A stretch of DNA of 64,000 nucleotides from assembly GCF_016599145.1 (NCBI RefSeq), contig NZ_JAENKO010000004.1, positions 1 through 64,000 on the forward strand, in the 5' to 3' direction. Position 1 is the stretch's first letter. Each line of letters begins with the position of its first letter. The stretch comes from Tomitella cavernea. GTDB taxonomy: Bacteria > Actinomycetota > Actinomycetes > Mycobacteriales > Mycobacteriaceae. This document shows, in pieces, positions 3,748 through 33,997 of this stretch. The position numbers and the translations under genes were made by a program. A model generated the notes under the pieces. That model ran no database searches. It saw nothing but the letters and a program-made list of their open reading frames with translations, and was not told the DNA's origin.

Positions 3748-6371
3748 CACCGGGGTCGCCCGTACCGCCGGGGCCCGGGGGCACTGCGCCCGTCGTTGCA
3801 GCGCCTGCCGATGCTGCACCCGCGAAGGAGGAGCTGCGCCGCCTGGTCGCGGCGCTGCCCCTCGAGCGGAAGGTGCGGCTGCTCACCGGCGCCGGCTTCT
3901 GGACGCTGCCCGGCGACGACGCGATCGGCCTGCGGCCCGTCGTGATGTCCGACGGGCCGGCCGGGGTGCGCGGAACCGCGCGAGGCGCCGAGGAGCCTTC
4001 CCCCGTTCTCCCCTCCGGCAGCGCACTGGGCGCCACGTGGGCCCCCGAGGCCGCCCGCACCTACGGCTCCGTGCTCGGCGCGATCGCACGGGACCGGGGC
4101 GTCGACATGCTGCTGGGCCCCACCGTCAACCTGCACCGCTCCCCCTACGGCGGGCGGCACTTCGAGGCGCTGTCCGAAGACCCGCTGCTCACCGGTGTCC
4201 TCGCCGCCGCATACGTGGACGGCGTGCAATCCCACGGCGTGGCCACGTGCGTGAAGCACTACGTGGGCAACGACTACGAGGTGCAGCGCCACACCGCCAG
4301 CTCCGACATCGACGACCGCACCCTGCGCGAGGTGTATCTCGTGCCGTTCGAGAAGGCGGTGCGCGACGGCGGGGCCTGGACGGTGATGGCCGCCTACAAC
4401 CGCGTGGGCGGCACCCCGATGACCGAGCATCCGCTGCTCGACGTCCCCTTGAAGGACGAGTGGGGGTTCGACGGCGTCGCGGTCTCCGACTGGCTCGCCG
4501 CCCGCTCCACCGTTGCCTGCGGCAGGGCGTCGCTCGACCTCGTGATGCCCGCGGTGTCGAGCCCCTGGGGCGACGCGCTCGTCGCCGCCGTGCGGGCCGG
4601 GGACGTCCCCGAGGAGTCGGTGGACGCGAAGCTTCTGCGCGTGCTGCGGCTCGCCGGGCGCGTCGGGGCGCTAAGCATCGAAGAACCGTCGGCCCCGGCC
4701 GGCCCCCCTGCGGGCGAGGCCACCGGCATCGCTGACACGGCCGTCGTCGCTGACACTGCCGCTGCCACTGCCGCTGCCGACGCCGTGCGGTTCGCGGTGG
4801 AGGGCACGGTGCTGCTGCACAACCGCGGCCTGCTGCCGCTGGCGCCGGGTCCCGGCCCGGCAGACTCCGGCCCGGCGTCTGCTGCCGGCTCGGCGGCCGC
4901 AACCGGCCCCGCGTCGATCGCGGTGATCGGCCCCAACGCGGCGTCGGCCCGCATCCAGGGCGGCGGCAGCGCCACGGTGTTGCCCGACGCGTCGGTCTCC
5001 CCGCTCGAGGGGATACGCCTCCGGTTCGGCACCGCGCGCGTCGACTTCCGCCTGGGCGTGGAGCCGCACACCGGAATCTTCCCGTATCCGCCGGACGCCG
5101 TCCGCAACCCCGTGACGGGCGACCGCGGGCTGCGCGTCACCCTCACCGGCGACGACGGCACGGTGCTCGCCGACGAGACCCGCGCGACGGCCGAACTCAC
5201 CTGGCTGGGCACCCTCCCCCCGGACGCCGCCACGCTGACGGTGCGCGCGGTGGTCACGCCCGACCGGACCGGCGAGACGGTCGTCGGCGTCGCGTGCGCG
5301 GGCGGCTTCCGCATGGACCTCGACGGCGAGCAGGTCCTGGCACCCGACGGACAGCATGCCCCGGACGACGCCCCGCAGCGCCGCCCCGAGCAGGACATCT
5401 TCGCGCCGCCCGTGCACACCGTCACCAGGGCGCTCACCGCGGGCCTGCCGTACGATCTCGCCGTGACGTGCGACCTGCGCACCGCGCCGATCCCCGGCGT
5501 TCACACGCTCACGCTCGGCTGGGCACCCTACGAGGGCGGGGCCGAGCAGATGCTGGCCGACGCGGAGCGTGCGGCGGGCGCCGCCGAGGTGGCCGTCGTC
5601 GTGGTGGGAACGTCGTCGCAGACGGAGAGCGAGGGCTTCGACCGCACCACCCTGCGCCTGCCCGGCCGCCAGGACGAACTGGTGCGCCGCGTCTGCGCCG
5701 CCAACCCGCGGACCGTGGTCGTCGTCAACTCGGGCGGCCCGGTGCTCATGCCGTGGCGCGACGAGGCCGGGGCGCTGCTGGTGAGCTGGTTCGGCGGCGG
5801 GCGGACGGGCGAGGCGCTGGCGCGGATCCTCGCGGGCGACGACGAGCCCGGCGGCCGCATGCCCACCACGTGGCCCGCCGAGGAAGCCCAGTTGATGGGG
5901 CCCGACGCCCCGGTGGACGGGCGCGTCGCCTACGACGAGTCGATCCATGTGGGGCACCGCGGCTGGCTGCGCGCCGGCTTGCGCCCCGCCTGCTGGTTCG
6001 GGCAGGGCATCGGCTACACGCAATGGCGTATCGGCGAGGTCGAGGCGCCGCGGATCGTCGCGGCGGGAGAGGGCTTCGCCGTAAAGTGCGCCGTCCGCAA
6101 CGTCGGCGCACGCCCCGGCAAACAGGTCGTGCAGGTCTACGCGTCGCGCCCGCGCAGCGCCGTGGACCGGCCGCGCCGATGGCTCGCCGGATTCGCCCCG
6201 GTGCGCCTCGCCGCGGGCGAGGAATCGGTGGTGACGGTGCCCATCGCCGCCCGCGCACTGGCCGCCTGGCGCGGCGGCGAATGGTGGTATGAGAACGGCG
6301 ATGTCGAGATCCTGCTGGGCACCTCCGCCGTCGACATCATCGGCCGCGTCATGGTGACCGTGCGCGGATGA
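3744..6371 (+). CDS. GH3 beta-glucosidase with PA14-like insert
   Basis: An 875-aa family 3 glycoside hydrolase, probably an exo-acting beta-glucosidase. It starts at GTG 3744 inside the GTGA that ends the binding-protein gene, so the two are translationally coupled. Seen: KH at about 171-172 and the nucleophile motif GFDGVAVSDW with Asp249 in the barrel domain; a beta-rich insert around 445-610 that looks like a PA14 domain; the motif TESEGFDR at 627-634, which carries the probable acid/base Glu; and a C-terminal fibronectin-III-like domain. No signal peptide is seen, so it should act in the cytoplasm on imported glycosides. The PA14 insert in related enzymes shapes the active-site entrance. 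Confidence 0.9.
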   Translation: MTPGSPVPPGPGGTAPVVAAPADAAPAKEELRRLVAALPLERKVRLLTGAGFWTLPGDDAIGLRPVVMSDGPAGVRGTARGAEEPSPVLPSGSALGATWAPEAARTYGSVLGAIARDRGVDMLLGPTVNLHRSPYGGRHFEALSEDPLLTGVLAAAYVDGVQSHGVATCVKHYVGNDYEVQRHTASSDIDDRTLREVYLVPFEKAVRDGGAWTVMAAYNRVGGTPMTEHPLLDVPLKDEWGFDGVAVSDWLAARSTVACGRASLDLVMPAVSSPWGDALVAAVRAGDVPEESVDAKLLRVLRLAGRVGALSIEEPSAPAGPPAGEATGIADTAVVADTAAATAAADAVRFAVEGTVLLHNRGLLPLAPGPGPADSGPASAAGSAAATGPASIAVIGPNAASARIQGGGSATVLPDASVSPLEGIRLRFGTARVDFRLGVEPHTGIFPYPPDAVRNPVTGDRGLRVTLTGDDGTVLADETRATAELTWLGTLPPDAATLTVRAVVTPDRTGETVVGVACAGGFRMDLDGEQVLAPDGQHAPDDAPQRRPEQDIFAPPVHTVTRALTAGLPYDLAVTCDLRTAPIPGVHTLTLGWAPYEGGAEQMLADAERAAGAAEVAVVVVGTSSQTESEGFDRTTLRLPGRQDELVRRVCAANPRTVVVVNSGGPVLMPWRDEAGALLVSWFGGGRTGEALARILAGDDEPGGRMPTTWPAEEAQLMGPDAPVDGRVAYDESIHVGHRGWLRAGLRPACWFGQGIGYTQWRIGEVEAPRIVAAGEGFAVKCAVRNVGARPGKQVVQVYASRPRSAVDRPRRWLAGFAPVRLAAGEESVVTVPIAARALAAWRGGEWWYENGDVEILLGTSAVDIIGRVMVTVRG

Positions 6372-6381
6372 GGCCATCGCC

Positions 6382-7467
6382 GTGAACATCGGAATCCTCG
6401 GCGTCGGCAGCGTGTTCGGCGCATACATGCGCGGGCTCCGCGCCGTCGCCGGGCTGCCGGTGCTGCGGCTCGCGTCGCGCGACCCCGAACGTGCCCGGGC
6501 GGCCGCGGAGGCCGCGGGCGTGCCGAGGTGGGGCGGGCTCGACGACTTCTGCGCCGACGACGATGTCGAGCTGGTCGTGAACCTCACCCCGCCCGCGGCG
6601 CATGCCGGGACCACGCTCCGGCTGCTCGAGGCCGGCAAGCACGTGTTCGTGGAGAAGCCGTTCGCGCCCGACGTCGCCGCCGCGCAGCGGATCATCGACG
6701 CCGCCGCGTCGGCTGACCGGCTCTTGGGGTGCGCGCCGGACGTGTTCCTGGGGCCGGCCGGTCAGACGGCCCGCGCCGCGCTCGACGCGGGCATGATCGG
6801 CAGGCCGTTCGCCGCGACATCCTTCGTCCGCTCGTCGCGGGTGGAGACGTGGCACCCGGACCCGGCCGGATACTTCGGGCCGCTCGGCGGGCCGGTGCTG
6901 GACTGGGGGCCGTACCACGTCGCGCTGCTGGTGAACCTGCTCGGCCCGGTGCGCTCGGTGATGGCCGCAGGCGTGCGGGCGCGCGACGAGGTGGCCGTCT
7001 CGGCGCCGGGCCGGACCGGCGACGTGGTGCCGGTGGCCGTGGACACGCACGTGAGCGCCGTGCTCGAGTTCCCGGGGCCGTGCCTGGTCACCGCGATGTA
7101 CAGCTTCGACGTGTGGGAGACGACGCTGCCGCACCTGGAGATCTACGGCACCGAGGGGACGCTGCGCCTGCCGGACCCCACGCGCCTGCACGGGACCGTG
7201 GAGTTCCGGGCGCGCGGCGCCGACGCCTGGACCGCGCTGCCTGCCGTCATGCCCCGGCTCCTGCGCGGCGAGCTGCGGGAGTTCCGGGGGCTCGGGGTGG
7301 CGGAGATGGCCGGCCGCCTCGCCGGCGGCGGGGAGCACCGCACGGACGCGGCGCTGGGGCTGCACGTGCTCGACGTGCTCACCGCCCTCGGCGAGTGCTC
7401 GATGGACTCGGGCAGCCGGAAGATCCGCAGCACCGTCGCGCGGCCTGCCGCGATGGAACTGGAATAG
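6382..7467 (+). CDS. Gfo/Idh/MocA family oxidoreductase
   Basis: A 361-aa NAD(P)-dependent dehydrogenase of the glucose-fructose oxidoreductase/inositol dehydrogenase family. Seen: a Rossmann start with GVGSVFG at 7-13, the hallmark EKP at 91-93 and the family C-terminal alpha/beta domain with LDWGPYHV. The GTG start lies 10 bp after the GH3 stop, so the gene is the last member of the GH13-binding protein-GH3 cluster. It probably oxidises, reduces or epimerises a sugar released by the two glycosidases. The exact substrate is unknown. Confidence 0.88.
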   Translation: MNIGILGVGSVFGAYMRGLRAVAGLPVLRLASRDPERARAAAEAAGVPRWGGLDDFCADDDVELVVNLTPPAAHAGTTLRLLEAGKHVFVEKPFAPDVAAAQRIIDAAASADRLLGCAPDVFLGPAGQTARAALDAGMIGRPFAATSFVRSSRVETWHPDPAGYFGPLGGPVLDWGPYHVALLVNLLGPVRSVMAAGVRARDEVAVSAPGRTGDVVPVAVDTHVSAVLEFPGPCLVTAMYSFDVWETTLPHLEIYGTEGTLRLPDPTRLHGTVEFRARGADAWTALPAVMPRLLRGELREFRGLGVAEMAGRLAGGGEHRTDAALGLHVLDVLTALGECSMDSGSRKIRSTVARPAAMELE

Positions 7468-23573: not shown

Positions 23574-24752
23574 ATGACCGCACCCCGCCGCCCGGGCCCG
23601 CTGTTCCCCGAGTACCACGCTCCGTGGGAGACGGAGGAGCACAAGGCGTTACGTGCGCACGCCGCAGAATTCTTCCGCCGCGAGGCCACCCCGCACCAGA
23701 AGCGCTGGGCCGACCAGCACATGGTGGACCGGGACTTGTGGACCAAGGCCGGCTCCGCCGGGCTCCTGTGCCCGGGACTGCCCGAACGCTATGGCGGCGC
23801 CGGCGGCGACTTCGGCCACGAAGCCGTCGTCGAACAGGAACGCACCCTCGCGCACGACACGGCCTTCGGGTTCAACGTGCACTCGACGATCGTCGCCCAC
23901 TACATCGCCGCCTACGCCACCGAAGACCAGAAGCAGCGGTGGATTCCCCACCTCGCCTCCGGGGAGATGGTCCTCGGCATCGCCATGACCGAACCCGGCA
24001 CCGGTTCCGACCTGCAGTCGGTCCGCACCACGGCCATCCGCGACGGCGACCACTACGTCGTCAACGGATCGAAAACGTTCATCTCCAACGCCACCCACTG
24101 CAATCTACTGGTCATCGTCGCGAAAACCGACCCCTCCCAGGGGTCGAAAGGCATCTCGCTGCTCGTCGCCGAAACGGACGGGCTCGACGGTTTCGAACGC
24201 GGCCGGATACTCGACAAGATCGGGCAGCACGGCCAGGACACCCGCGAACTCGCGTTCACCGACATGCGCGTGCCCGTCGACAACCTGCTCGGCGGCGAGG
24301 AGAGCCGCGGATTCGCGCAACTCATGGAGCAACTCCCGCGCGAGCGGCTCATCATCGCCGTCACCGGCGTCGCGATGGCGGAGGCGGCCGTCGCCGAGAC
24401 CATCGCCTATGCCAAGGAGCGCAGTGCCTTCGGCACGCCCCTCATCGATTTCCAGAACACCCGCTTCGTCCTTGCCGAGTGCAAGGCCGAGGTGCTCGCC
24501 GGCAAAGCGCTGATCGACCACTGCATCGTCGAATACAACGCGGGCCGCCTCGACGCCGCCACCGCGTCGATGGCCAAGTTGTGGTGCACCGACAAGCAGG
24601 TCGAGGTGGTCGACAAGTGCCTGCAGATATTCGGCGGGTACGGCTACATCATGGAGTACCCCATTGCACAGATGTACGCCGCCGCCCGCGTGCAGAAGAT
24701 CTACGGCGGAACCAACGAGATCATGAAGTTGCTCATCGCGCGCTCGCTGTGA
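23574..24752 (+). CDS. acyl-CoA dehydrogenase (long-chain type)
   Basis: A 392-aa FAD-dependent acyl-CoA dehydrogenase. Seen: MTEPGTGSDLQSV flavin-binding motif, NGSKTFISNA, and the C-terminal signature IYGGTNEIMKLLIARSL. That last motif lacks the Glu of the YEGT form. As in LCAD, the base should instead be the Glu of LPRERL, here Glu257. The enzyme would make the first double bond in beta-oxidation of medium, long or branched acyl-CoA. It is the only acyl-CoA dehydrogenase in the window, and its immediate neighbours are the hydratase and a broken ligase gene. Confidence 0.9.
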   Translation: MTAPRRPGPLFPEYHAPWETEEHKALRAHAAEFFRREATPHQKRWADQHMVDRDLWTKAGSAGLLCPGLPERYGGAGGDFGHEAVVEQERTLAHDTAFGFNVHSTIVAHYIAAYATEDQKQRWIPHLASGEMVLGIAMTEPGTGSDLQSVRTTAIRDGDHYVVNGSKTFISNATHCNLLVIVAKTDPSQGSKGISLLVAETDGLDGFERGRILDKIGQHGQDTRELAFTDMRVPVDNLLGGEESRGFAQLMEQLPRERLIIAVTGVAMAEAAVAETIAYAKERSAFGTPLIDFQNTRFVLAECKAEVLAGKALIDHCIVEYNAGRLDAATASMAKLWCTDKQVEVVDKCLQIFGGYGYIMEYPIAQMYAAARVQKIYGGTNEIMKLLIARSL

Positions 24753-24841
24753 GTCCCCGGTCCGCCACCCGCCGTCTGAGCCGCGCACCCGGCCCGGGCG
24801 GTGGCCGACGCCCGCTCCCCCGCCCCCCTACGGAGGTCGCC

Positions 24842-26369
24842 ATGACACCTCTGCACGGTCAGCTCGCCGTCAATGCCCACCGCATCCCCGACGACACGGC
24901 CGTTGTCCTCAAGGACCACACCTTCTCTTACACGGAGTTCGATGAGGAGGTGAACCGCTATGCGCACGCCCTGGCGTCCCTGGGGGTGCGCAAGGGCGAC
25001 CGCGTCGCGGTGCTGTCGACGAACTCCGACCGTTTCCTGCTCGCCCTGTACGGCGCGTTCCGGATCGGGGCGATCGCCTCGCCGTTCAACCCGCGTTCGG
25101 CCCCGTTGGAGTTGCACTACCTGCTCACCGACTCCGGCGCCTCCGTACTGGCATTCGGCGGCGACACGGCGGAGGTCGTACGTGCCCTCAGCACCCATGA
25201 CGATCTCGCTCCCGTGGACGCGCGTGTGGTATCGCTCGACGGCGCGGACGGATTCGACGACCTTGCGCACCTGGCCGCCACCATGCCCGCACACGACCCC
25301 GGTGTGGCCGTGGCCGAGGACGACGACGCGATCATCATGTACACCTCCGGCACCACCGGCGCGCCGAAGGGCGCCCTGTTCGATCACCACCGGATGCTGC
25401 GGGTCGGCCAGTCGATGACCGCGCTGGGACTGACCGCCGGGCAGCGGCAGCTGCACGCCGCGCCGCTGTACCACTGCGCAGAGCTCGCGCTGATGACGAT
25501 GACCGGACTGACCAATGGCAACGAGAACCACATCATGGACGTGTTCGACCCGGTAGCCGTCGTTGATTCGCTCGAACGCCACCGCATCACGCTGCTACTC
25601 GCTGTGCCGACGATGTATCAGATGATCATGCGGGTTCCGGGCATCACCGAGCGCGACCTGTCCGCATGGCATACCGGCTTCTTCGGGGCAGCGCCCATGC
25701 CGCCGACCGCCGTCGCCGAACTCTCCCGGAAATTTCCGAACGTACAGTTCACGCAGCTGTGCGGCCCCACCGAGGGCGGGTCGACGGGCATCTACTCCGC
25801 GCCCCATGAAGTACGGGAACGCCCGGACACCACGGGACGCCGGGCCGTGCCCTACGCCCAGGTACGCCTGGCCGACGGGAATGGCGACGAGCCCGAGGTC
25901 GGCACGCCCGGCGAGATCCTGTTGCGCGTCCCGTCCATGATGAAACGGTACTGGAACAAGCCCGAAGCCACGGAAGCCGCGCTGCGCGACGGCTGGCTGC
26001 ACACCGGCGACCTCGCAGTGCGCGACGAGCACGGATACTTCACGATCGTCGATCGCCTCAAGGACATGATCATCACCGGCGGAATGAACGTCTACTCGGT
26101 CGAGGATGAGAACGCGCTCGCCGGACACCCGGAAGTGCAGGACGTGGCCGTGATCGGCCGCCCGCACGAGACTTACGGCGAAACGATCGTCGCCGTCGTC
26201 ACCCCGGTCGAGGGTCGCGAGGTGACCCTTGAGGGGCTGCGCGAGTACGCCGCCGACCGCATCGGGGAACACATAGCTGCCCCGCGTGCTGGTGACCCTG
26301 CCGATTCCCCGCAATCCCTCCGGCAAGATCCTCAAGCACGTGTTGCGTGAGCAGCTCCCCGCGCAATGA
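24842..26369 (+). pseudogene. acyl-CoA ligase gene with a one-base frameshift near the 3' end
   Basis: A ligase-like chain runs from ATG 24842 (GGAGG just upstream) with A3 motif MYTSGTTGAPKGALF and hinge HTGDLAVRDEHGYFTIVDRLKD. After EHI at about 26270 it loses family character and stops at 26350. In the +1 frame from 26277 the expected C terminus appears: LPRVLVTLPIPRNPSGKILK with the catalytic lysine, ending at TGA 26367-26369. An extra base at about 26274 (CACATAG instead of CACAAG) explains this. As written, the product lacks the catalytic Lys. This may be a genuine mutation or a sequencing error. Confidence 0.88.
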
Positions 26370-26448
26370 TCCCCGCGCGACCTACTCGGCGCCCCCGAGA
26401 CGGTCCTACGGTGCGTGCCGGGCCCCCTCCGGCGATACGCTGCCGACC

Positions 26449-27966
26449 ATGACCCTCGATCCGCGTACACCCGTCCTCGTCGGCGGCGGCCAGGTGTCGG
26501 AACACGACGGCGGCATCGAACCGGTGGATCTGATCGCCGAGGCCGCCCGGGCCGCTGCCGCCGAAGCCGGATCGCCGCGGCTCCTCGAAACCCTCGATAC
26601 GGTCTGGCTCTCGCGGATCCTCTCGTGGCCGTACCGCGACCCGGGCCTCCTCGTCGCGCACCGCATCGGCGCGGTCCCCCGCCACACCGGCTACAGCGGC
26701 ACCGCGGGGAGTGTTCCGCAGGTCCTCCTCGCGCGTGCCGCCGACGACATCGCCGCCGGCCGCCGCGACGCCGTCCTGGTCGGCGGCGCCGAATCCTGGC
26801 GCACCTTGATGAAGCTGCGCGCACAGGACCGCACACCCGAGTGGACGGTGCAGCCGGAAGCCATCGCCCCGGCCGAGAACCTGGTCCCGGACGTGCCGAT
26901 GGGCGCCGAGGCCGAGAAACGCATCGGCTTCACCCGGCCCGCGCACATATATCCGCTGTTCGACGACGCGCTGCGCCTACGGCTCGGACGAACGCGCTCC
27001 GTGCACCGCGACGCGCTCGGACGGTTGTGGTCACGAATGAGCCGCGTGGCGGCCGAGAACCCGCACGCCTGGTCACGCGAAGCCCTGTCCACGCAGCAGA
27101 TCACCACGCCGAGCCGCGAGAACCGCATGATCGCCTCGCCGTATACCAAGCGGATGAACTCGAACAACATGGTCGACCAGGCGGCGGCTCTGCTGATGTG
27201 CTCGGCCGCGACCGCGGACGCGCTGGGTATCGGACGCGACCGGTGGGTGTTTCCTCATGCAAGCGTCGAAGGCCATGACACGTACGCGGTCGCCGAACGG
27301 CCCGCGCTCGATCGCTGTCATGCGATACGTATCGGCGGACAACGGGCGCTGGAGCTCAGCGGCGTCGGCCTCGACGACATCGCGTATGTGGACCTGTACT
27401 CCTGCTTCCCGTCGGCGGTCCAGATCGCCGCGCGCGAGCTCGGGCTGCCGCTCGACGACCCCGCCCGCCCGCTGACCGTCACCGGCGGGCTGTCTTTCGC
27501 CGGCGGACCATGGTGCAACTACTCGGCGCACGCGGTCGCGAGCATTGCCGGGCGTCTCCGCGACAACCCCGGCAATTACGGACTGGTCACCGCGAACAGC
27601 GGCTACCTGACCAAACAGGCGGTCGGGGTGTACAGCACCGAGCCGCCGGCGAGCGGATTCCGCCGTGCCGACGTGCAGGCCGAGATCGACCGTGTCCCGA
27701 CAGTCCGGGCTCTCGACACCTACGCCGGACCCGCCACCACGGAGGCGTCCACCGTCGTCTACGACCGGTCCGGCGAACCCGAACGCGCCTTCCTCGCCGC
27801 CCGCACCCCCGCAGGCGAAAGGGTGCTGGCCGTCTCGCGGGACGACGCCGACATCGACGCGCTGCAGTCCTGCGAGGACGGTGCGATGGCGGTCGACGTC
27901 GCCGCCGACGGCACGTTTCACGTCTCCGGCTCGGCCGCAGGTGAAGGTTTCATCACCACCGTGTGA
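26449..27966 (+). CDS. thiolase-fold protein lacking the nucleophilic cysteine
   Basis: A 505-aa protein related to acetyl-CoA acetyltransferases, with a C-terminal beta-rich extension after about residue 410. Seen: VLVGGGQVSEHD start and GRRDAVLVGGAES. The position that carries the catalytic Cys in true thiolases reads YSGTAGSVPQ (82-91), with no Cys. LYSCFPSAVQIA corresponds to the later HDCF region. It is therefore probably not a normal thiolase and may be a structural or aldolase-like partner. ATG 26449 follows 79 bp after the restored stop of the ligase. Frame upstream of 26449 lacks family character. Confidence 0.75.
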   Translation: MTLDPRTPVLVGGGQVSEHDGGIEPVDLIAEAARAAAAEAGSPRLLETLDTVWLSRILSWPYRDPGLLVAHRIGAVPRHTGYSGTAGSVPQVLLARAADDIAAGRRDAVLVGGAESWRTLMKLRAQDRTPEWTVQPEAIAPAENLVPDVPMGAEAEKRIGFTRPAHIYPLFDDALRLRLGRTRSVHRDALGRLWSRMSRVAAENPHAWSREALSTQQITTPSRENRMIASPYTKRMNSNNMVDQAAALLMCSAATADALGIGRDRWVFPHASVEGHDTYAVAERPALDRCHAIRIGGQRALELSGVGLDDIAYVDLYSCFPSAVQIAARELGLPLDDPARPLTVTGGLSFAGGPWCNYSAHAVASIAGRLRDNPGNYGLVTANSGYLTKQAVGVYSTEPPASGFRRADVQAEIDRVPTVRALDTYAGPATTEASTVVYDRSGEPERAFLAARTPAGERVLAVSRDDADIDALQSCEDGAMAVDVAADGTFHVSGSAAGEGFITTV

Positions 27967-28008: not shown

Positions 28009-28605
28009 CTATGGCCGCGCGGTGACCATGGCGATGAGCCTGTCGATGTCCGCGCCCTCCGGCGCCGGCAGGTTGCCGCGCGCATGGATGAATCCGACGC
28101 CCGCGTAGACCATCACCCCGGCGCGCAGGCGCGCGTCCTGCTCGTCGAAGCCGAGCTCGCGCATCGTCGCCTCGACGACGTCGAAGATCCGCCGGTCGAG
28201 CACGCGCACGGACTCGGCGATCTGTTCGTTGGTGCGCGCCCAGTCCCGGATCGCCCGCTCGACCGTCCAGGAGCCCTCCGCGAGCAGCATCCGCGACATC
28301 ACTCCGAGCCGTTCGTCGACGGGTACCGACTCCAGGTCGTCCAGGCCGCGCACGGCGTCGTTCTGGCGCCCGCACCAGTGATCGGCGGTCGCGGCAATCA
28401 GCGATCGCAGGTCGGCGAAGTGCCAGTAGAAGCTGCCCTTGGTCACGCCGAGCCGGGCGCACAACGTGGAGATCTTCACGGCGGCCACGCCGTCCTCGAC
28501 GAGGAGCGCGAGTGCCGCCGTCGTCCAATCGTCGACACCGAGGCGGCCTGATTGCGGAGCGGCCGCGTCGGCCTCCGGGCCACCCGTCCTACTCTTCCGG
28601 CCCAC
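28009..28605 (-). CDS. TetR-family transcriptional regulator
   Basis: A TetR protein of about 198 aa with HTH region ALALLVEDGVAAVKISTLCARLGVTKGSFYWHFADLRSL. GTG 28605 is preferred over ATG 28650 because GGAGGTGAG lies directly upstream and the GTG gives a typical basic N terminus (GRKSR). It is divergent from the Lcp-like/CrtC-like/CrtI-like genes. The region between has a 12-bp palindrome, so this is probably their repressor. Confidence 0.82.
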   Translation of the reverse strand: MGRKSRTGGPEADAAAPQSGRLGVDDWTTAALALLVEDGVAAVKISTLCARLGVTKGSFYWHFADLRSLIAATADHWCGRQNDAVRGLDDLESVPVDERLGVMSRMLLAEGSWTVERAIRDWARTNEQIAESVRVLDRRIFDVVEATMRELGFDEQDARLRAGVMVYAGVGFIHARGNLPAPEGADIDRLIAMVTARP

Positions 28606-28770
28606 GACCTCACCTCCGGCTTCCGCGCACCCGAGACGCACGATACGCACCCGAGGACGTCAAGGACTGAGGACATGCCGACACCGCGTCGTCTCCCGTC
28701 CCACGTATCCGGCGGTCGCCTCCTTCGTTGTGGGGCATCACCGATCTCCGCACAACCTGGCACCACACCA

Positions 28771-28782
28771 TACCGTACGGTA
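28771..28782. promoter_or_regulatory. palindromic operator TACCGTACGGTA
   Basis: A perfect 12-bp palindrome, extended by a further ACGGT repeat (ACCGTACGGTACGGT), lies between the divergent TetR gene and the oxygenase gene, about 120 bp before the latter. The shape is typical of TetR operators. Confidence 0.6.
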
Positions 28783-28900
28783 CGGTGACTGATGCGAAGT
28801 GCATCACACCGCACAACCACCGGGTCACGCCCGATGCCTGGACCCCGACGCCGTGCGCAGCCCGCTGCTCTTCCGCAGGCCCCACCGCAAGGAGGACGCC

Positions 28901-30220
28901 ATGACTGCACAGCCCGAGACCGCACAGCCCGCCGCCGCGGACGACGCACCCCCGCCGGGCGGCAGCAGCATGGCGGGGCCGGAGCGGTGCCCCCGGCGCT
29001 TCCGCTACTGGCACAACGCCGCCCGGCCGGGCGTGCGCAGAACCCGCGGCGTCATCCGGAACCTCACCGGCTTCGACATCTTCCCCACGCACGCCCAGGC
29101 CGTGGACCTGTGCGACGACCTGTACGCGGGCGACCCGGTGGCCGAGCGCTTCGTCGCCGACGTCTTCGACGGACCCATCGGCCCCGCCGAGGGACGCAGG
29201 ATGCTGCAGCAGGCCCTCGCCGAGGGGATCGACGCCGTCGACGACGCGCCGGAGTCGATGCGGGCGCTGTTCGCCGAGTTCGAGGACGTCCCCGCGTGGG
29301 TGGACCGGGACCTGGTCGAGCAGGGCGCGGCGATCTGGCGGCGCTGGGGAACGATGCTGTACTCCGTCGCCGGCGCGATCACCCTCGAGATCTACACCGA
29401 GGCCGCCGTCGCCACACCGTTGTCCCTCTCCGGCGGCTACGCCGGCGACAACGCCCTGCGGCGCTTCCTGGAGACCGGGCGGTTCTGGATCGACGTGTCC
29501 ACCCCTGACACGTTGTTCACCCCCGGATCCGACGGCCGCGCCACGGCGATGCTCGTGCGGGTGATGCACGTGGCGGTGCGCCGGCGCGTGGCCGAGCACC
29601 CCGAGTGGCGGGCCGACGACTGGGGCCTGCCCATCAGCCAGACGTACATGCTGCTCACGCTCATCGGCGGCAGCGTCGCACCCGCGCTGGCCCTGTGGCC
29701 CCTGGGTTACCTCACCAGCGGCAAAGAGATGCGCGCGCTGCTGCACTTCCAGAAGTACATGGGCCACCTGCTGGGCGTGCAGCCCCGGTGGTTCCCTGAG
29801 ACCATCGGCGACTGCCTGCGCGTGCTGGCGATGACGATCGCCTCCCGCTCCTACGACGCCGGAGCGCACGGGGCCGAACTGGTCGAATCGTTCCCCCGCG
29901 CGTTCGGCCCACGCGACGAGCACCGCGGGCTGCAACGCCTCCGCGCCGCCTACAACGAGCGCATCTACGCCGCCTATTCCGCGCTGTTCATGGCGCCGCG
30001 CACCCGGGCGCGTTACGACATGCCGCGCGCCTTCCCCTGGGTCCTCATCCCCGTCGCACGCGCCCCCCTGGTGGCCGCCTCCGAGGTCGCGCGGCGCATC
30101 GTCCCCGGCTACGCCCGCCTGCTCGAGGCCGTCATGGTCCGCCATCGGGCGAACTGGCTCGACGCGCAGATGGCCGGGCGCGAAGCCCAGTTCGAAGCGC
30201 AAAGCGCGCTGCGCCGCTGA
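28901..30220 (+). CDS. latex-clearing-protein-like oxygenase (DUF2236/MpaB family)
   Basis: A 440-aa protein of the DUF2236 family, which includes latex-clearing protein (Lcp, b-type heme, oxidative cleavage of poly-cis-isoprene) and MpaB. Seen: LRRFLETGRF, then LVRVMHVAVRRRVAEHPEW, where His223 aligns with the axial heme ligand of Lcp, followed by WGLPISQTYMLLTL and a long helical C terminus. AAGGAGG precedes ATG 28901. No Tat or Sec signal is seen, so unlike secreted Lcp it is probably intracellular. It leads a unit with CrtC-like and CrtI-like genes, so a polyisoprenoid or carotenoid substrate is a reasonable inference. Confidence 0.8.
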   Translation: MTAQPETAQPAAADDAPPPGGSSMAGPERCPRRFRYWHNAARPGVRRTRGVIRNLTGFDIFPTHAQAVDLCDDLYAGDPVAERFVADVFDGPIGPAEGRRMLQQALAEGIDAVDDAPESMRALFAEFEDVPAWVDRDLVEQGAAIWRRWGTMLYSVAGAITLEIYTEAAVATPLSLSGGYAGDNALRRFLETGRFWIDVSTPDTLFTPGSDGRATAMLVRVMHVAVRRRVAEHPEWRADDWGLPISQTYMLLTLIGGSVAPALALWPLGYLTSGKEMRALLHFQKYMGHLLGVQPRWFPETIGDCLRVLAMTIASRSYDAGAHGAELVESFPRAFGPRDEHRGLQRLRAAYNERIYAAYSALFMAPRTRARYDMPRAFPWVLIPVARAPLVAASEVARRIVPGYARLLEAVMVRHRANWLDAQMAGREAQFEAQSALRR

Positions 30221-30260
30221 TGCATACGCGCTACTCCCCCGTCCCAGCAGAAGGAATGCC

Positions 30261-31367
30261 ATGACAGCACTGACCGCCCTGGGCGCCCGGCTCGGCGCCG
30301 GGCCGCGCACCGTCACCGAGGCCTGGCACGGGCCCGGCCGCCGCGACGGCGCCATCGCCCCGATCCCCGCGTCCGCCAACGGCGCCCATCCGTCGGACGC
30401 GCGCACCGCCTTCGAGCACTGGTACTTCGACGCGCTGCTCGACGACGGGCACATCGTCGTCGCCATGCTCCAGGCCCGCGAACTCGTCACCCGCAGGCCC
30501 GGGGTGGAACTGCACGTCTACTCGCCCGACGGGCGCCGCCGCGAGGTCGTCGCCCGCTACACCGACGCCGACATCGACGCGGATGACGACCGGTGCCGGG
30601 TGCGGATCGGCGCCAACACCGCCGAGGTCGAGTACCGCGACGGCGCGCCGCCTGTGCACCACCTGCGCGTGGCGGAAGGCGATCTCGCCTTCGACCTGCG
30701 CTTCGACGGCGAGCTGCCCGGATGGATGCCCGGCGACGGGCGCACCACCTACAGCCGCGGGGGCCGCGACACCGGCGAGTTCTTCGCGTGGGTCGTCGGC
30801 GCGCCCCGTGCACGCGTCACCGGCACCGTGCGCATCGGCGATACGACCCTCACCGCCCGCGGCACCGGATACCACGACCACAACTGGGGCGTCGGCGACA
30901 TGAAGCGCGTCATCGACCGGTGGTACTGGGGGCGGCTCTACACCGAGGACTACACGCTGGTCTATGCGAACGTGCTCACGCAGAAGGCGTACGGAGCCCA
31001 CTGGGCGACGCCGCTCATGCTGGGGCGCCGCGGCGAGGTGATCCTCAGCTCCGGCGAGGTGACGCTGCATCCCGGCCCGGAGAGCTTCGACGCGACCGCG
31101 AACCGGACCTACCCCGAGACCCTGCGCATGACGGTGCCCGGCAGCGTGGGCCTGCTGCTGGAAGTGCAGGACATCGTGCACGCGCACGACTTCCTCGCCG
31201 ACGTGCCGCTGGTGCGCACCGGGCCCGTCAAGGCCTTGGCCAACAGAGTCCTCGGGCGACCCGGCTACTTCCGTTTCCGCAGCCGCTACACGCTCACCGT
31301 CACCGACGGCGGCCGGGAGCACGTGCGCACCGGCACAACGCTGCACGAGATGGTGGCGCTGAAGTGA
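30261..31367 (+). CDS. CrtC/AttH-type lipocalin-like protein
   Basis: A 368-aa protein of the hydroxyneurosporene synthase (carotenoid 1,2-hydratase)/AttH family. Seen: FEHWYFDA at 51-58, TYSRGG and HDHNWG at 205-210, the paired marker motifs of the two lipocalin-like domains. CrtC adds water to a terminal isoprene double bond. Relatives include Diels-Alderase-like cyclases, so the reaction here is open. It starts 40 bp after the oxygenase with AGAAGGA upstream, and is followed by a CrtI-like oxidoreductase. Confidence 0.78.
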   Translation: MTALTALGARLGAGPRTVTEAWHGPGRRDGAIAPIPASANGAHPSDARTAFEHWYFDALLDDGHIVVAMLQARELVTRRPGVELHVYSPDGRRREVVARYTDADIDADDDRCRVRIGANTAEVEYRDGAPPVHHLRVAEGDLAFDLRFDGELPGWMPGDGRTTYSRGGRDTGEFFAWVVGAPRARVTGTVRIGDTTLTARGTGYHDHNWGVGDMKRVIDRWYWGRLYTEDYTLVYANVLTQKAYGAHWATPLMLGRRGEVILSSGEVTLHPGPESFDATANRTYPETLRMTVPGSVGLLLEVQDIVHAHDFLADVPLVRTGPVKALANRVLGRPGYFRFRSRYTLTVTDGGREHVRTGTTLHEMVALK

Positions 31368-31478
31368 CGGGATCTGCAGTGACGGGATAGGGCGCCGCTG
31401 GGCTCGCGCGCAGTAACGTGAACCATCCCGGCCCGGTCCGGCCTCGGGGATGGCGCGTGGCGCAGAGAAGGAGCCCGG

Positions 31479-32933
31479 ATGACGACGGCGGTGGTGATCG
31501 GCAGCGGTCCCAACGGGTTGTCCGCCGCCGTCCGCCTGGCGCACGCCGGCCTCGATGTGACAGTCCTCGAGGCGGCCGATCATCCTGGCGGCGGGACGCG
31601 CACCTCCGAGTTGACGCTGCCCGGAGTGCTGCACGACGAGTGCTCGGGTTTCCACCCGACCGGGGCAGCGTCGCCGTACTTCGCCGCGCTCGGCCTCGAA
31701 CGGCACGGGTTGCGGTGGTTGTGGCCGGAGGTCGACCTGGCCCACCCGCTCGACGACGGCCGGGCCGCCCTGGCGACACGCGGGCTGCGGCACATCGATT
31801 CGCTCGGTGCCGACGCGCACCGGTGGCGGCGCATGTTCACCCCGCTCATCGCACGATTCGACGACCTCGTCGCCGACGTCTTCCGTCCGCTGGTGCACGT
31901 GCCCCGGCACCCGGTGACGCTGGGCCGGTTCGGGATCCAGGCGCTCGCACCCGCCATGTGGCAAACGCGGCGGTTCTCCGACGAGCCCGCCCGCGCACTG
32001 TTCGCGGGCGTCGCGGCGCACGCCTTCGGCCGGCTGGACACTCCGCTGAGCAGCGCCGTCGGGCTTCTGCTCACCGCCGCCGCGCACGCCTTCGGCTGGC
32101 CGGTCGCGGAAGGGGGTTCCGCCGCGATCAGCCGGGCTCTCACAGCGGAGCTCGCGGCGCACGGCGGCCGGGTGCGCACGGGCATCCGAGTGGAATCGCT
32201 CGGCGGGCTGCGAGATCTCACCGGCGCCGCTCCGGACGTAGTCTTGCTCGACACAGCTCCGGCGGGCGCGCTCACCATCGCGGGCGACGCGCTGCCCGTC
32301 CGGGTGCGCCGCGCGCTGCAGCGGTATTCATACGGGCCGGCCGCGCACAAGGTGGATTTCGCGATCGAGGGCGACATCCCCTGGGTCAACCGCGACTGCG
32401 GCCGCGCCGGCACCGTCCACCTCGGCGGCAGCGCTCGGGAGATCGCGGACGTGGAGGCCGCCACTGCGTGTGGGCGGATGCCGCGGCGCCCGTTCGTCCT
32501 GCTGGGGCAGCAGTACGTGGCCGATCCCTCGCGATCGGACAGCACGGAGTCGGGAGCCGCGATCAACCCCGTCTATGCATACGCGCACGTGCCACACGGC
32601 TACGACGGCGGCGCGGGCGACGCCACCGAGACGGTCATCGCCCAGATCGAACGGTTCGCCCCCGGGTTCCGCGAGCGGATCCTGGCCACTTCGGTGCGCG
32701 GGCCCGCAGACCTGGAGGCGCACAACAGCAACTACGTCGGCGGAGACATCGCGGCCGGGGCGCAAACGGCGATACAGACGGTGTTCCGCCCACGGCCGGC
32801 CGTCAACCCCTACGCACTCGGGATCCCGGGGGTGTATCTGTGCTCGTCGGCCACCCCGCCCGGCGCCGGCGTGCACGGGATGAGCGGCTACCACGCGGCC
32901 GAGGCGGCGCTCGATTGGTTGCGCCGCCGGTGA
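31479..32933 (+). CDS. CrtI-like FAD-dependent oxidoreductase
   Basis: A 484-aa flavoprotein of the phytoene desaturase/carotenoid isomerase type. Seen: N-terminal dinucleotide fold GSGPNGLSAA (8-17) with E-binding strand VTVLEAADHPGGGTRT, and the C-terminal FAD signature PPGAGVHGMSGYHAA. AGAAGGAG precedes ATG 31479. It is the third gene of the unit beginning with the Lcp-like oxygenase, 111 bp after the CrtC-like gene. No phytoene synthase gene is nearby, so it probably modifies an existing isoprenoid. Confidence 0.82.
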   Translation: MTTAVVIGSGPNGLSAAVRLAHAGLDVTVLEAADHPGGGTRTSELTLPGVLHDECSGFHPTGAASPYFAALGLERHGLRWLWPEVDLAHPLDDGRAALATRGLRHIDSLGADAHRWRRMFTPLIARFDDLVADVFRPLVHVPRHPVTLGRFGIQALAPAMWQTRRFSDEPARALFAGVAAHAFGRLDTPLSSAVGLLLTAAAHAFGWPVAEGGSAAISRALTAELAAHGGRVRTGIRVESLGGLRDLTGAAPDVVLLDTAPAGALTIAGDALPVRVRRALQRYSYGPAAHKVDFAIEGDIPWVNRDCGRAGTVHLGGSAREIADVEAATACGRMPRRPFVLLGQQYVADPSRSDSTESGAAINPVYAYAHVPHGYDGGAGDATETVIAQIERFAPGFRERILATSVRGPADLEAHNSNYVGGDIAAGAQTAIQTVFRPRPAVNPYALGIPGVYLCSSATPPGAGVHGMSGYHAAEAALDWLRRR

Positions 32934-33101: not shown

Positions 33102-33437
33102 ATGACGCACGCCGACGGGGAACTCGTGGTCACACAAGAGGCCATCGACACCATTGCGGGGGCATACGAACAGGCAGCGGCGGACCTTCGGGAGTTGGCC
33201 ACGACCTTCGCGCATACTTACGGCCGTGAGCCGTGGGGCACGCTGCCGTCCATACTTCAGTTGCAGAGTATGTATGAGGAACTCGCGCTCGGCGACAAAG
33301 GCTCGGCGGTAGTCAGGCTCAATGAGTTCGCAGATCGAGCGGCCAGTCTCGCAGCGTGGGTACGCGAGGGTGGCGCGTCGCTCCTCGACGCGGATCACAC
33401 GACAGTCGCGGCGATCACTGAATCAGATCCCCAGTGA
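33102..33437 (+). CDS. EspC-like helical protein (putative type VII secretion-associated)
   Basis: A 111-aa acidic, helix-rich protein with a pattern like ESX-secretion-associated EspC-type targets (ITQEAIDTIAGAYEQAAADL... and a second helix ending in WVREGGASLLDADHTT). No signal peptide or Cys. Its stop overlaps the GTG start of a DUF3558-like lipoprotein. This pairing is common in Mycobacteriales. No other ESX component is in the window, so the secretion role is an inference. Confidence 0.55.
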   Translation: MTHADGELVVTQEAIDTIAGAYEQAAADLRELATTFAHTYGREPWGTLPSILQLQSMYEELALGDKGSAVVRLNEFADRAASLAAWVREGGASLLDADHTTVAAITESDPQ

Positions 33438-33997
33438 GCGGCCGCGCAGGAAAAGCGGCCGCTATTGCAGCCCTCGCAGGTCTGCTGGCCGGATGCTCCG
33501 GCACCGAACACACGGATACGCAAACGCCCTACACCACCGAGGCCGGAATTCCTGCGACCGGCTTCTTCGACCCGTGCGACGCCGCAATGACCGCCTGGTT
33601 CGGCCAGCGCGGTTACCACCACCCAGATTTCATCGAGCCTATTCTCGACGAGATCGGCAGCAACTGCAGCTACACCTCGGACACCGACGGCTTCGCGGTG
33701 ATGTCCCGCGGATCCACCCCCGGCGACGGGATCGATCGGCGATTGCATCACCTCCTCGGTATCCAAGGCCCCGTCTCGCAGGCGACTCTCGCGGGCTATC
33801 CCATCGACATCGAGATCATCTCGTCCGGCAGGCAACGTCAGGATTGCCACCTGGTCGCCACTGTCGGCTACGGGTTCCTCGAGGTGTCCGGCGGACCTCG
33901 TGGCCCGATAGCGGAAACCTTCCCCCGCGACTGCGACGCCGCCCAGACATTCACCGCGAACCTGCTGCGTCGCATGGACCATGTCTGGCCCGGGTGA
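33434..33997 (+). CDS. DUF3558-like lipoprotein
   Basis: A 187-aa surface lipoprotein. Seen: basic start, hydrophobic core and lipobox GLLAGC with Cys21. Then FFDPCDAAMTAWF, a second conserved Cys (NCSYTSD) and a late Cys pair (DCHL, DCDA), as in the DUF3558 family of Nocardia-like bacteria. GTG 33434 overlaps the stop of the EspC-like gene (GTGA). Function unknown; the disulfides would form outside the membrane. Confidence 0.72.
   Translation: MSGRAGKAAAIAALAGLLAGCSGTEHTDTQTPYTTEAGIPATGFFDPCDAAMTAWFGQRGYHHPDFIEPILDEIGSNCSYTSDTDGFAVMSRGSTPGDGIDRRLHHLLGIQGPVSQATLAGYPIDIEIISSGRQRQDCHLVATVGYGFLEVSGGPRGPIAETFPRDCDAAQTFTANLLRRMDHVWPG

Follow-up and report, generated by a model that had tools for sequence, protein, structure and literature searches.

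The TetR, DUF2236 and CrtC-like genes in the 64,000-nucleotide stretch of DNA analysed here (the window) look like the reduced core of a larger catabolic cluster, found in many actinobacteria of the soil, with a probable role in the uptake and degradation of compounds like vitamin E or quinones. At a rough probability of 0.55, we favour the reading that this cluster serves the actinobacterial catabolism of a lipid whose isoprenoid tail is attached to a phenol, hydroquinone or chromanol head group, with the window unit as its reduced core. This reading builds on directly established gene content, linkage, operator motif, folds and kept residues and on the loss of an oxidase gene in the window strain.

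An earlier note on the locus had described a three-gene unit of Lcp-like, CrtC-like and CrtI-like proteins under TetR control, and all four genes concerned (TetR, DUF2236, CrtC-like and FAD oxidoreductase) are real. The conserved unit is the DUF2236/CrtC-like pair plus its TetR regulator, which together with the operator recur across several actinobacterial families. The FAD gene (31479..32933, forward strand) starts 111 bp downstream of the CrtC-like gene and adjoins the pair only in the sister genome G003 among 20 loci compared, while it stands beside the CrtC-like gene in none of 69 named loci (60-bit limit, flanks up to 10 kb). We therefore reject the triplet as a unit, since among the loci compared its CrtI-like gene adjoins the pair in one sister genome only, an outcome that, but for this genome, the earlier note had named as refuting. 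A gene about 70% identical stands alone in G002, a genome of the same genus without a match to either the DUF2236 or the CrtC-like partner, and the FAD gene probably lies outside the system. Its product seems to belong, weakly, to the CrtI/CrtO superfamily: it scores 66 bits against the CrtI-family model TIGR02734 (cut-off 238), short of what would define a CrtI phytoene desaturase, and 79 bits against the CrtO model (cut-off 1000), and the sole PDB match covers an uninformative 37 residues of a phytoene dehydrogenase. The earlier note was right that no phytoene synthase belongs to the group, the genome's single SQS_PSY (phytoene/squalene synthase) gene being located on another contig.

Among family genomes with a CrtC-like gene (called at E<1e-90), 36 of 38 carry DUF2236 within 4.3 kb on the same strand, the window's genome counted, and the two exceptions are one contig break and one broken copy. 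The 69 named loci with a CrtC-like gene (flanks up to 10 kb, one bit-score limit per family) contain DUF2236 in 63 cases and a TetR relative of at least 90 bits in 47. The TetR-family gene of the window (28009..28650, reverse strand; Pfam TetR_N, E 1.4e-9), which has relatives at the named loci, encodes the predicted repressor and regulator of the cluster. Its divergent promoter contains the palindrome CCATACC-GTAC-GGTACGG (28768..28785), a predicted operator site from motif search that is one mismatch from CCATACC-N4-GGTATGG; no other sequence in the 4.0-Mb genome matches CCATACC-N4-GGTAYGG exactly. The palindromic operator proposed before belongs to a recurring motif: of 70 regions beside TetR, counting that of the window, 48 have it within 3 mismatches, versus about 1 in shuffles. 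Operator-like sites with at most 2 mismatches lie no more than 500 bp from a cluster gene in 44 of the 69 named loci (25 are without), versus a mean of 0.5 and a maximum of 6 for 60 scrambled motifs in the same 69-locus test. The remaining 22 of the 70 TetR-adjacent regions are without the motif within 3 mismatches; in several of these the site precedes a secreted-hydrolase or oxidase gene instead, an arrangement seen in L036, L037, L039, L041, L048, L059, L060, L068, L109, L117, L118 and L120, while L053, L061, L091, L102, L107, L111, L123 and L154 show no motif at all within 3 mismatches. Such sites, each with 2 mismatches, also stand in front of the L036 yrbE/mce operon and of each half of the cluster in L153. 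This conserved, predicted operator motif ties the cluster genes together, and the window palindrome is one copy of it. A promoter and terminator scan of the locus found nothing above chance.

The DUF2236 (MPAB_Lcp_cat) protein (28901..30220, forward strand) clearly passes the PF09995 cut-off (53 bits versus 23; E 6.4e-14). Its open frame also permits a GTG start at 28799, but we take the ATG at 28901 because ribosome site and alignment favour it. Lcp is the only PDB fold match at E ≤ 0.001 for the model of this protein, and Lcp residues R164, T168, R195, H198, R202 and T230 align to R188, T192, R220, H223, R227 and T253. Across 97 sequences (from partly redundant sets), H223 and R188 are kept without exception and T192 in 95, with Ser in the other 2. 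PMC5522427 describes H198 as the proximal haem histidine of Lcp and R164 and T168 as active-site residues. The distal Lys167 of Lcp is not kept (Glu191), and Glu148 of the substrate channel is replaced: it aligns to Leu174, which is invariant and falls where the model has a pLDDT below 50. From its domain, fold and kept residues, the DUF2236 protein is predicted to be a haem oxygenase that cleaves an isoprenoid C=C bond. Relatives of 51-67% identity are also carried by 11 loci from genomes without a CrtC-like gene (L138-L140 keep TetR and an operator-like site, L141 has CoA-transferase and Mce genes, and L142-L148 show no recognised partner), and DUF2236 is therefore not always dependent on the CrtC-like enzyme.

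The CrtC-like protein (30261..31367, forward strand), a putative hydratase/dehydratase with a CrtC/AttH fold, matches the CrtC N-terminal domain PF07143 marginally (24 bits versus a cut-off of 22.5; E 6.8e-5) and scores 23 bits versus the 400 of the CrtC equivalog NF045922. Its D206, W221 and W223 match D268/W283/W285 of RgCrtC (+15, +17), a comparison made by spacing only, and are present in all 100 sequences (sets partly redundant); D206 falls in the pattern used to select the named loci, unlike W221 and W223. Also in the selecting pattern lies W54, kept in 99 of 99 sequences with that stretch and possibly equivalent, by similar spacing only, to Trp110 of RgCrtC. The nearest folds to the model are Diels-Alderases (Z about 27), besides AttH, kievitone hydratase and 25-phosphosteroid lyase, and the best PDB sequence match is kievitone hydratase (E 1.5e-6). 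According to published descriptions, kievitone hydratase hydrates a prenylated phenol and 25-phosphosteroid lyase acts on a steroid side chain; hydration or dehydration by CrtC-like enzymes is unreadable from sequence. We claim no link to tocopherol cyclase, since a Pfam search with the CrtC-like protein does not hit that family. DUF2236 is missing from the surroundings of distant CrtC-like genes (about 30% identity, on contigs of Chloroflexi, Actinomycetota and archaea) as well as of two closer ones (L066, L101), and ten neighbours scanned from 4 of 13 such loci are unrelated. Ten plasmid records give only partial matches under 60% identity, with unrelated neighbours in the three inspected (Sulfitobacter, Streptomyces and Agrobacterium).

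Many relatives harbor a larger cluster, with counts at the 69 named loci of 29 for an exported CotA-like multicopper oxidase, 24 each for an Mce importer and a phenylacetaldehyde-dehydrogenase-like enzyme, 23 each for a homogentisate-dioxygenase homologue and a hydrolase, 13 for a CoA-transferase, and 3 for an HMG-CoA-lyase-like enzyme. The oxidase is nearest to CotA, the importer genes carry MlaE and Mce domains (Pfam MlaE, MlaD, Mce4_CUP1), and the best model for the dehydrogenase is the phenylacetaldehyde dehydrogenase StyD NF045736 (657 bits, below its cut-off of 800). The CoA-transferase is nearest to succinate-glutarate and mesaconate CoA-transferases, below their cut-offs, while the HMG-CoA lyase passes its family model and no Pfam match of the hydrolase reaches the threshold. 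A dioxygenase of the homogentisate type (E<1e-140) occurs in 23 of 201 genomes; every one of these belongs to the 38 that have a CrtC-like gene, and none to the other 163. Ring cleavage is not obligate, since the remaining 15 of the 38, the window's among them, lack it. This dioxygenase passes the hmgA model TIGR01015 (583 bits versus 511 in L036) and keeps the iron ligands His348 and Glu354 in 33 of 33 sequences and His384 in all 32 with that stretch. At position 346 (3zds numbering by count), the P. putida and human sequences of the alignment have Tyr and 33 of 33 cluster sequences have His, and P. putida Trp329 is His in 32 of 33. Tyr346 is an active-site residue of homogentisate dioxygenase, and its replacement looks as if made for an altered substrate. 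The isoprenoid-chain substrate suggested earlier is very likely given the kept haem-site residues of Lcp and catalytic residues of CrtC, but the wider cluster makes a prenylated aromatic compound, a quinone or chromanol, a better candidate than a carotenoid or rubber; the closest of the earlier proposals is the menaquinone side chain.

Prenylquinones and tocopherols are abundant lipids of plants and bacteria. From enzyme families, residues and context we infer the reactions of a pathway for such molecules, together with their order, repression and substrate. The exported multicopper oxidase would turn a chromanol or hydroquinone into a quinone (step 1), in the tocopherol case opening the ring and leaving a tertiary alcohol on the side chain, and the Mce system would import the quinone (step 2). 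The CrtC-like enzyme would use Asp/Trp carbocation chemistry to remove or add water at the ring-adjacent isoprene unit (step 3), and the DUF2236 haem enzyme with O2 would cleave the C=C bond to Ar-CH2-CHO and a methyl ketone (step 4). The phenylacetaldehyde-dehydrogenase-like enzyme would then form a methylated homogentisate (step 5), whose ring the homogentisate-dioxygenase homologue would open (step 6). Step 7, in which the fragments would be processed to the end by the hydrolase, the CoA-transferase and the HMG-CoA-lyase-like enzyme, is guesswork, because the hydrolase match is sub-threshold and the proteins scanned, which are part of the neighbours, include no fumarylacetoacetase. TetR would repress via CCATACC-N4-GGTATGG until an intermediate accumulates. 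Tocopherol is the favoured candidate substrate, being the one we have thought of that would give every enzyme a job. A complete degradation of vitamin E is a possible but tentative proposal: it would run from extracellular oxidation to tocopherylquinone and Mce import over dehydration by the CrtC-family enzyme (in reverse) and DUF2236 cleavage to phytone and trimethylated homogentisaldehyde to oxidation to the acid and ring opening by a re-specialised homogentisate dioxygenase.

Menaquinone, ubiquinone and plastoquinone fit steps 4-6 equally, and such a polyprenyl quinone might replace tocopherol as the substrate of the same pathway class, with the CrtC-like enzyme hydrating an existing double bond or acting on a quinone-chromanol form. 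We regard this as unlikely, though a serious contender: these quinones already hold the allylic double bond for DUF2236 cleavage to an arylacetaldehyde and the dehydrogenase and dioxygenase steps would follow equally well, but the dehydratase step and the exported phenol oxidase would be less needed. Moreover, menaquinone would yield a phthalate-type acid, whereas among neighbours shared by at least 4 of the 29 loci surveyed there is no gene family beyond those named. Detoxification or catabolism of prenylated plant phenolics is improbable. It would have a precedent in fungal kievitone hydratase, the best PDB sequence match of the CrtC-like protein, which is described as acting on prenylated isoflavonoids and xanthohumol. 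However, homogentisate-type ring opening and an arylacetaldehyde-type dehydrogenase seem unsuited to a resorcinol-type flavonoid ring, and Mce suggests a lipid substrate.

In the window strain the oxidase gene is gone except for a scar of 40 nt (28842..28881, forward strand) that blastn matches at 92.5% to L035 5608-5647, in the N-terminal part of an oxidase gene spanning 5448-7304. The earlier note had overlooked this remnant. The multicopper oxidase gene is intact in the sister genome G003, and the best oxidase match remaining in the window genome is 33% identical. The dehydrogenase and Mce genes are absent at the window locus as well, and a dioxygenase of this type is absent from the genome. 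With only the enzymes of steps 3-4 at the window locus, chain shortening or modification would be expected rather than full mineralisation. We give little credence to the locus being decaying debris whose remaining genes are idle, with dehydrogenase and Mce elsewhere or absent. The scar, a genome without such a dioxygenase or a close oxidase, and broken copies in G030, G138 and G181 agree with decay, but the operator and the genes for TetR, DUF2236 and the CrtC-like protein are undamaged, the tested catalytic residues are present, and a comparably reduced set occurs in several other genomes. The modification of carotenoids or rubber fragments by Lcp-, CrtC- and CrtI-like enzymes, as first envisaged, is very improbable despite the family resemblance to Lcp and CrtC and an SQS_PSY gene elsewhere in the genome: the CrtI-like gene accompanies the pair in one sister genome only, aromatic-ring enzymes are found instead, and we reject a carotenoid locus since no carotenoid gene is among the identified conserved neighbours and rubber degradation since Lcp Glu148 is replaced and no rubber genes were identified there.

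Open-access literature searches, with most subscription journals and all bioRxiv preprints outside their scope, gave no description of the cluster and no bacterial gene set for prenylquinone or tocopherol breakdown among the top matches listed. If the vitamin E reading is true, the DUF2236/CrtC pair would have its first assigned function and form part of the first gene set for tocopherol catabolism known to us. The locus offers a concrete and testable candidate, comprising a set of named genes with an operator, a reaction order predicted for them and a dioxygenase whose active site is altered.

Compared to Lcp of Streptomyces sp. K30 (5o1l/5o1m; MpaB family), the DUF2236 protein shares PF09995 and a similar fold (TM 0.58-0.70 to the model) and keeps Arg164, Thr168, Arg195, His198, Arg202 and Thr230 but not Glu148 and Lys167. 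Unlike Lcp, it has no secretion signal noticeable by eye and adjoins a CrtC-like gene and, in many relatives, aromatic-ring enzymes; the favoured catabolic role would assign a function to a subfamily of DUF2236 so far known only for its resemblance to rubber oxygenases. The catalytic Asp and two Trp of RgCrtC are spaced identically in the CrtC-like protein, but this protein lies outside any carotenoid locus and would give CrtC-type enzymes a new role beyond carotenoid synthesis. Its model matches kievitone hydratase (Z 22.9 over 290 residues, rmsd 4.0) and the 25-phosphosteroid lyase of anaerobic cholesterol degradation (Z 20.8 over 279 residues, rmsd 4.0), yet it is only 11-17% identical to solved relatives and closer in fold to Diels-Alderases. 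That lyase is described as forming an alkene in the isoprenoid side chain once a tertiary alcohol there has been activated, but it acts on a phosphorylated steroid and no kinase is recognised among the cluster's conserved genes. The dioxygenase shares equivalog cut-off and iron ligands with HmgA (3zds, 1ey2), has Trp329 and Tyr346 replaced by His and, unlike HmgA, has enzymes for side-chain cleavage as neighbours. Mce-linked lipid catabolic clusters exist in Actinobacteria, e.g., for sterol uptake, and here yrbE/mce genes are likewise adjacent and, in L036, preceded by an operator-like site; unlike in sterol-type clusters, the enzymes look fit for an aromatic isoprenoid.

The locus in the window comprises a TetR-type regulator gene on the minus strand (28009-28650) and, on the plus strand, a DUF2236 gene (Lcp/MpaB-like, PF09995) running from its ATG at 28901 to 30220, a CrtC-like gene (30261-31367), and an FAD oxidoreductase gene (31479-32933), with a palindrome between the TetR and DUF2236 genes (28768-28785). 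All four genes are present as an earlier note had claimed, but its view that the last three form one unit, with the FAD gene as a CrtI-like member, did not survive comparison with relatives. We used each protein as a query against 201 family genomes and fetched loci around the CrtC-like gene, one apiece from 20 of the 37 further genomes that contain it, together with 20 additional stretches. From a species-genome scan, the best 80 loci of a longer match list were taken; the 69 named loci (L055-L123) have a CrtC-like match of at least 44% identity and flanks of up to 10 kb, and they lie partly on the same contigs as the family loci, so that the two sets overlap and their counts are not additive.

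Of the 201 genomes, 38 (the window's counted) have the CrtC-like gene at E < 1e-90, and in 36 of them a DUF2236 gene lies no more than 4.3 kb from it in the same orientation (counted by eye from two tables); in the two exceptions, the cluster is interrupted by a contig break (G059) or the adjacent DUF2236 copy is split in two (G181). Likewise, 63 of the 69 named loci contain DUF2236, on the same strand every time and with a gap of at most 300 bp in 53. Of the other six, three are cut by contig ends (L061, L094, and L111), one has its copy in two pieces (L120), and two, L066 and L101, show no DUF2236 gene near the CrtC-like gene. DUF2236 relatives of any closeness are found in 141 of the 201 genomes, and 11 loci picked from genomes without a CrtC-like gene (L138-L148) carry DUF2236 at 51% to 67% identity and no CrtC-like gene. 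The linkage does not hold in reverse. Three of these loci (L138, L139, and L140) combine TetR, an operator-like site with 2 mismatches, and DUF2236 in genomes without any CrtC-like match and are a DUF2236-only version of the unit. The 4.02-Mb window genome, in which the window belongs to contig C59, itself has three further PF09995 genes on its contigs C20 and C36 (L001-L003), two of which match the family model far more strongly than the window's copy.

The FAD gene is probably no part of this conserved unit. Among the 20 CrtC-like loci, it adjoins the pair only in that of the sister genome (L035 from G003, 93-97% identical), and a search of the 69 named loci at a limit of 60 bits, over flanks of at most 10 kb, did not find it in any of them. 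A genome of the same genus, G002, has an FAD gene of approximately 70% identity on its own, and protein searches gave neither a CrtC-like nor a DUF2236 match there. The family scores of the FAD protein are also far under the CrtI and CrtO cut-offs.

What does accompany the pair in relatives is a larger set of genes, with membership drawn from clustering of called genes and from family scans. It includes two hydrolases. The first is a secreted alpha/beta hydrolase; the second hydrolase is classed as one from a GxSxG motif and, in one member, an Abhydrolase match below threshold. The multicopper oxidase of the set has a leader of twin-arginine type (by eye) and CotA laccase as nearest PDB match. 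The other members are a homologue of homogentisate 1,2-dioxygenase (583 bits against a cut-off of 511), an aldehyde dehydrogenase that scores best with the model of phenylacetaldehyde dehydrogenase StyD (657 bits, under the cut-off of 800), an HMG-CoA-lyase-like protein, a CoA-transferase of class III, and yrbE/mce genes (Pfam MlaE, MlaD, and Mce4_CUP1 in 7 of 7 scanned). The full cluster is carried by, for example, R. spelaei and Rhodococcus sp. 105337. Across the 69 named loci, which extend at most 10 kb per side so that the counts are lower bounds, we found TetR in 47, the oxidase in 29, Mce and the dehydrogenase in 24 each, the dioxygenase and the second hydrolase in 23 each, the CoA-transferase in 13, the secreted hydrolase in 9, and the HMG-CoA lyase in 3. 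The dioxygenase type (E < 1e-140) is present in 23 of the 201 genomes, which are related and do not represent 23 independent events; all belong to the 38 with a CrtC-like gene, of which 15 lack it, and none of the 163 others has it. The named loci that carry the dioxygenase, 23 in all, differ in gene order (L068 and L094 being cut by contig ends): 13 read DUF2236-CrtC-dioxygenase, 8 read (DUF2236-)dioxygenase-dehydrogenase-CrtC, and 2, from Gordonia and Williamsia, have the CoA-transferase before CrtC. Gordonia shandongensis (L115, 10000-13500) lacks the cluster dioxygenase but has another, with 25% identity to it, adjoining a copy of the second hydrolase with 45% identity; this pairing suggests that the second hydrolase works with the product of the dioxygenase.

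The window strain carries a reduced version of this cluster. The oxidase gene sits between TetR and DUF2236 in G003, and in the window this stretch is gone save for 40 nt (28842-28881) that match the N-terminal part of the G003 oxidase; searches of the window genome gave no dioxygenase match and no oxidase closer than 33%. Decaying clusters are seen elsewhere: in G030 (L149, 5747-11710), fragments of the dioxygenase and dehydrogenase lie next to the pair, and at G138:C1:2629865-2630918 partial oxidase and CrtC-like matches abut. As to the flanks in the window, the stretch that immediately precedes the convergent TetR gene (23574-27966) has genes for an acyl-CoA dehydrogenase, an acyl-CoA ligase, and an acetyl-CoA-acetyltransferase-like protein (thiolase); the thiolase alone holds its position in the sister genome, and this arrangement was not found near the pair elsewhere among the loci compared. 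On the other side (33102-33997), a protein of 111 aa with no Pfam match and a DUF3558-like lipoprotein (below cut-off) are fast evolving, since they are 72-74% identical in G003 compared to 92-97% for their neighbours.

The motif CCATACC-N4-GGTATGG occurs within 3 mismatches in 48 of 70 TetR-adjacent regions, against about 1 for base shuffles and a mean of 1.2 (maximum 10) for scrambled motifs, though the comparison is descriptive because the motif was derived from the same 70 regions. Copies also lie upstream of DUF2236 or the second hydrolase in loci without a TetR hit (e.g., L076, L093, L097, L105, and L116), and L036 has one preceding yrbE/mce. L153 carries two, one upstream of the oxidase and the other, past the mce operon, upstream of the second hydrolase. 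The site at 28768 is the sole exact match to CCATACC-N4-GGTAYGG in the whole window genome. Joined by this shared predicted operator, the cluster genes are predicted to be one regulon.

Among the top-ranked papers of our open-access literature searches, we found no description of this cluster and no tocopherol or prenylquinone degradation gene set. It would be a lipid catabolic cluster assembled from known families, which, judged by their established chemistry, would fit one route. The oxidase would oxidise a chromanol or hydroquinone, the oxidised lipid would be imported, the isoprene unit beside the ring would be hydrated or dehydrated, and oxidative cleavage of the double bond, the known chemistry of Lcp, would yield an arylacetaldehyde that is oxidised to a homogentisate before ring opening. 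MpaB is reported to cleave a double bond of a farnesylated phenol (PMC12724181). Tocopherol as substrate would give every enzyme a role because the tertiary alcohol of its oxidised form needs dehydration before alkene cleavage, and opening of the methylated ring would release dimethylmaleate and a 3-oxo acid, which would suit a mesaconate-type CoA-transferase and an HMG-CoA-lyase-like enzyme. The substrate could be tocopherol or, equally well, a prenylquinone.

Comparison with characterised enzymes was made for three proteins, using sets that count some genomes twice. The dioxygenase homologue keeps the iron ligands, and the positions aligned to Tyr346 and Trp329 of the P. putida enzyme are His in 33 of 33 and 32 of 33 homologues, respectively. 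The CrtC-like model (pLDDT 87) matches the folds of fungal Diels-Alderases (Z about 27), AttH (23.3), kievitone hydratase (22.9), and 25-phosphosteroid lyase (20.8); kievitone hydratase, which hydrates the prenyl group of an isoflavonoid (PMC5805349), is also its best PDB sequence match (E 1.5e-6). In RgCrtC, changes at D268, W110, W283, and W285 are reported to reduce or eliminate activity (PMC12402844). Matched by spacing, D206, W221, and W223 of the CrtC-like protein are set at identical distances to D268, W283, and W285; all three are present in 100 of 100 CrtC-like proteins, with D206, but not W221 or W223, included in the scan patterns used to pick the named loci. For the DUF2236 model (pLDDT 81), Lcp is the only structure match with E ≤ 0.001. 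Although Glu148 and Lys167 of Lcp are not kept in the profile alignment, other active-site and haem-site residues of Lcp (named in PMC5522427) align to R188, T192, R220, H223, R227, and T253, which are kept in 95 to 97 of 97 DUF2236 proteins.
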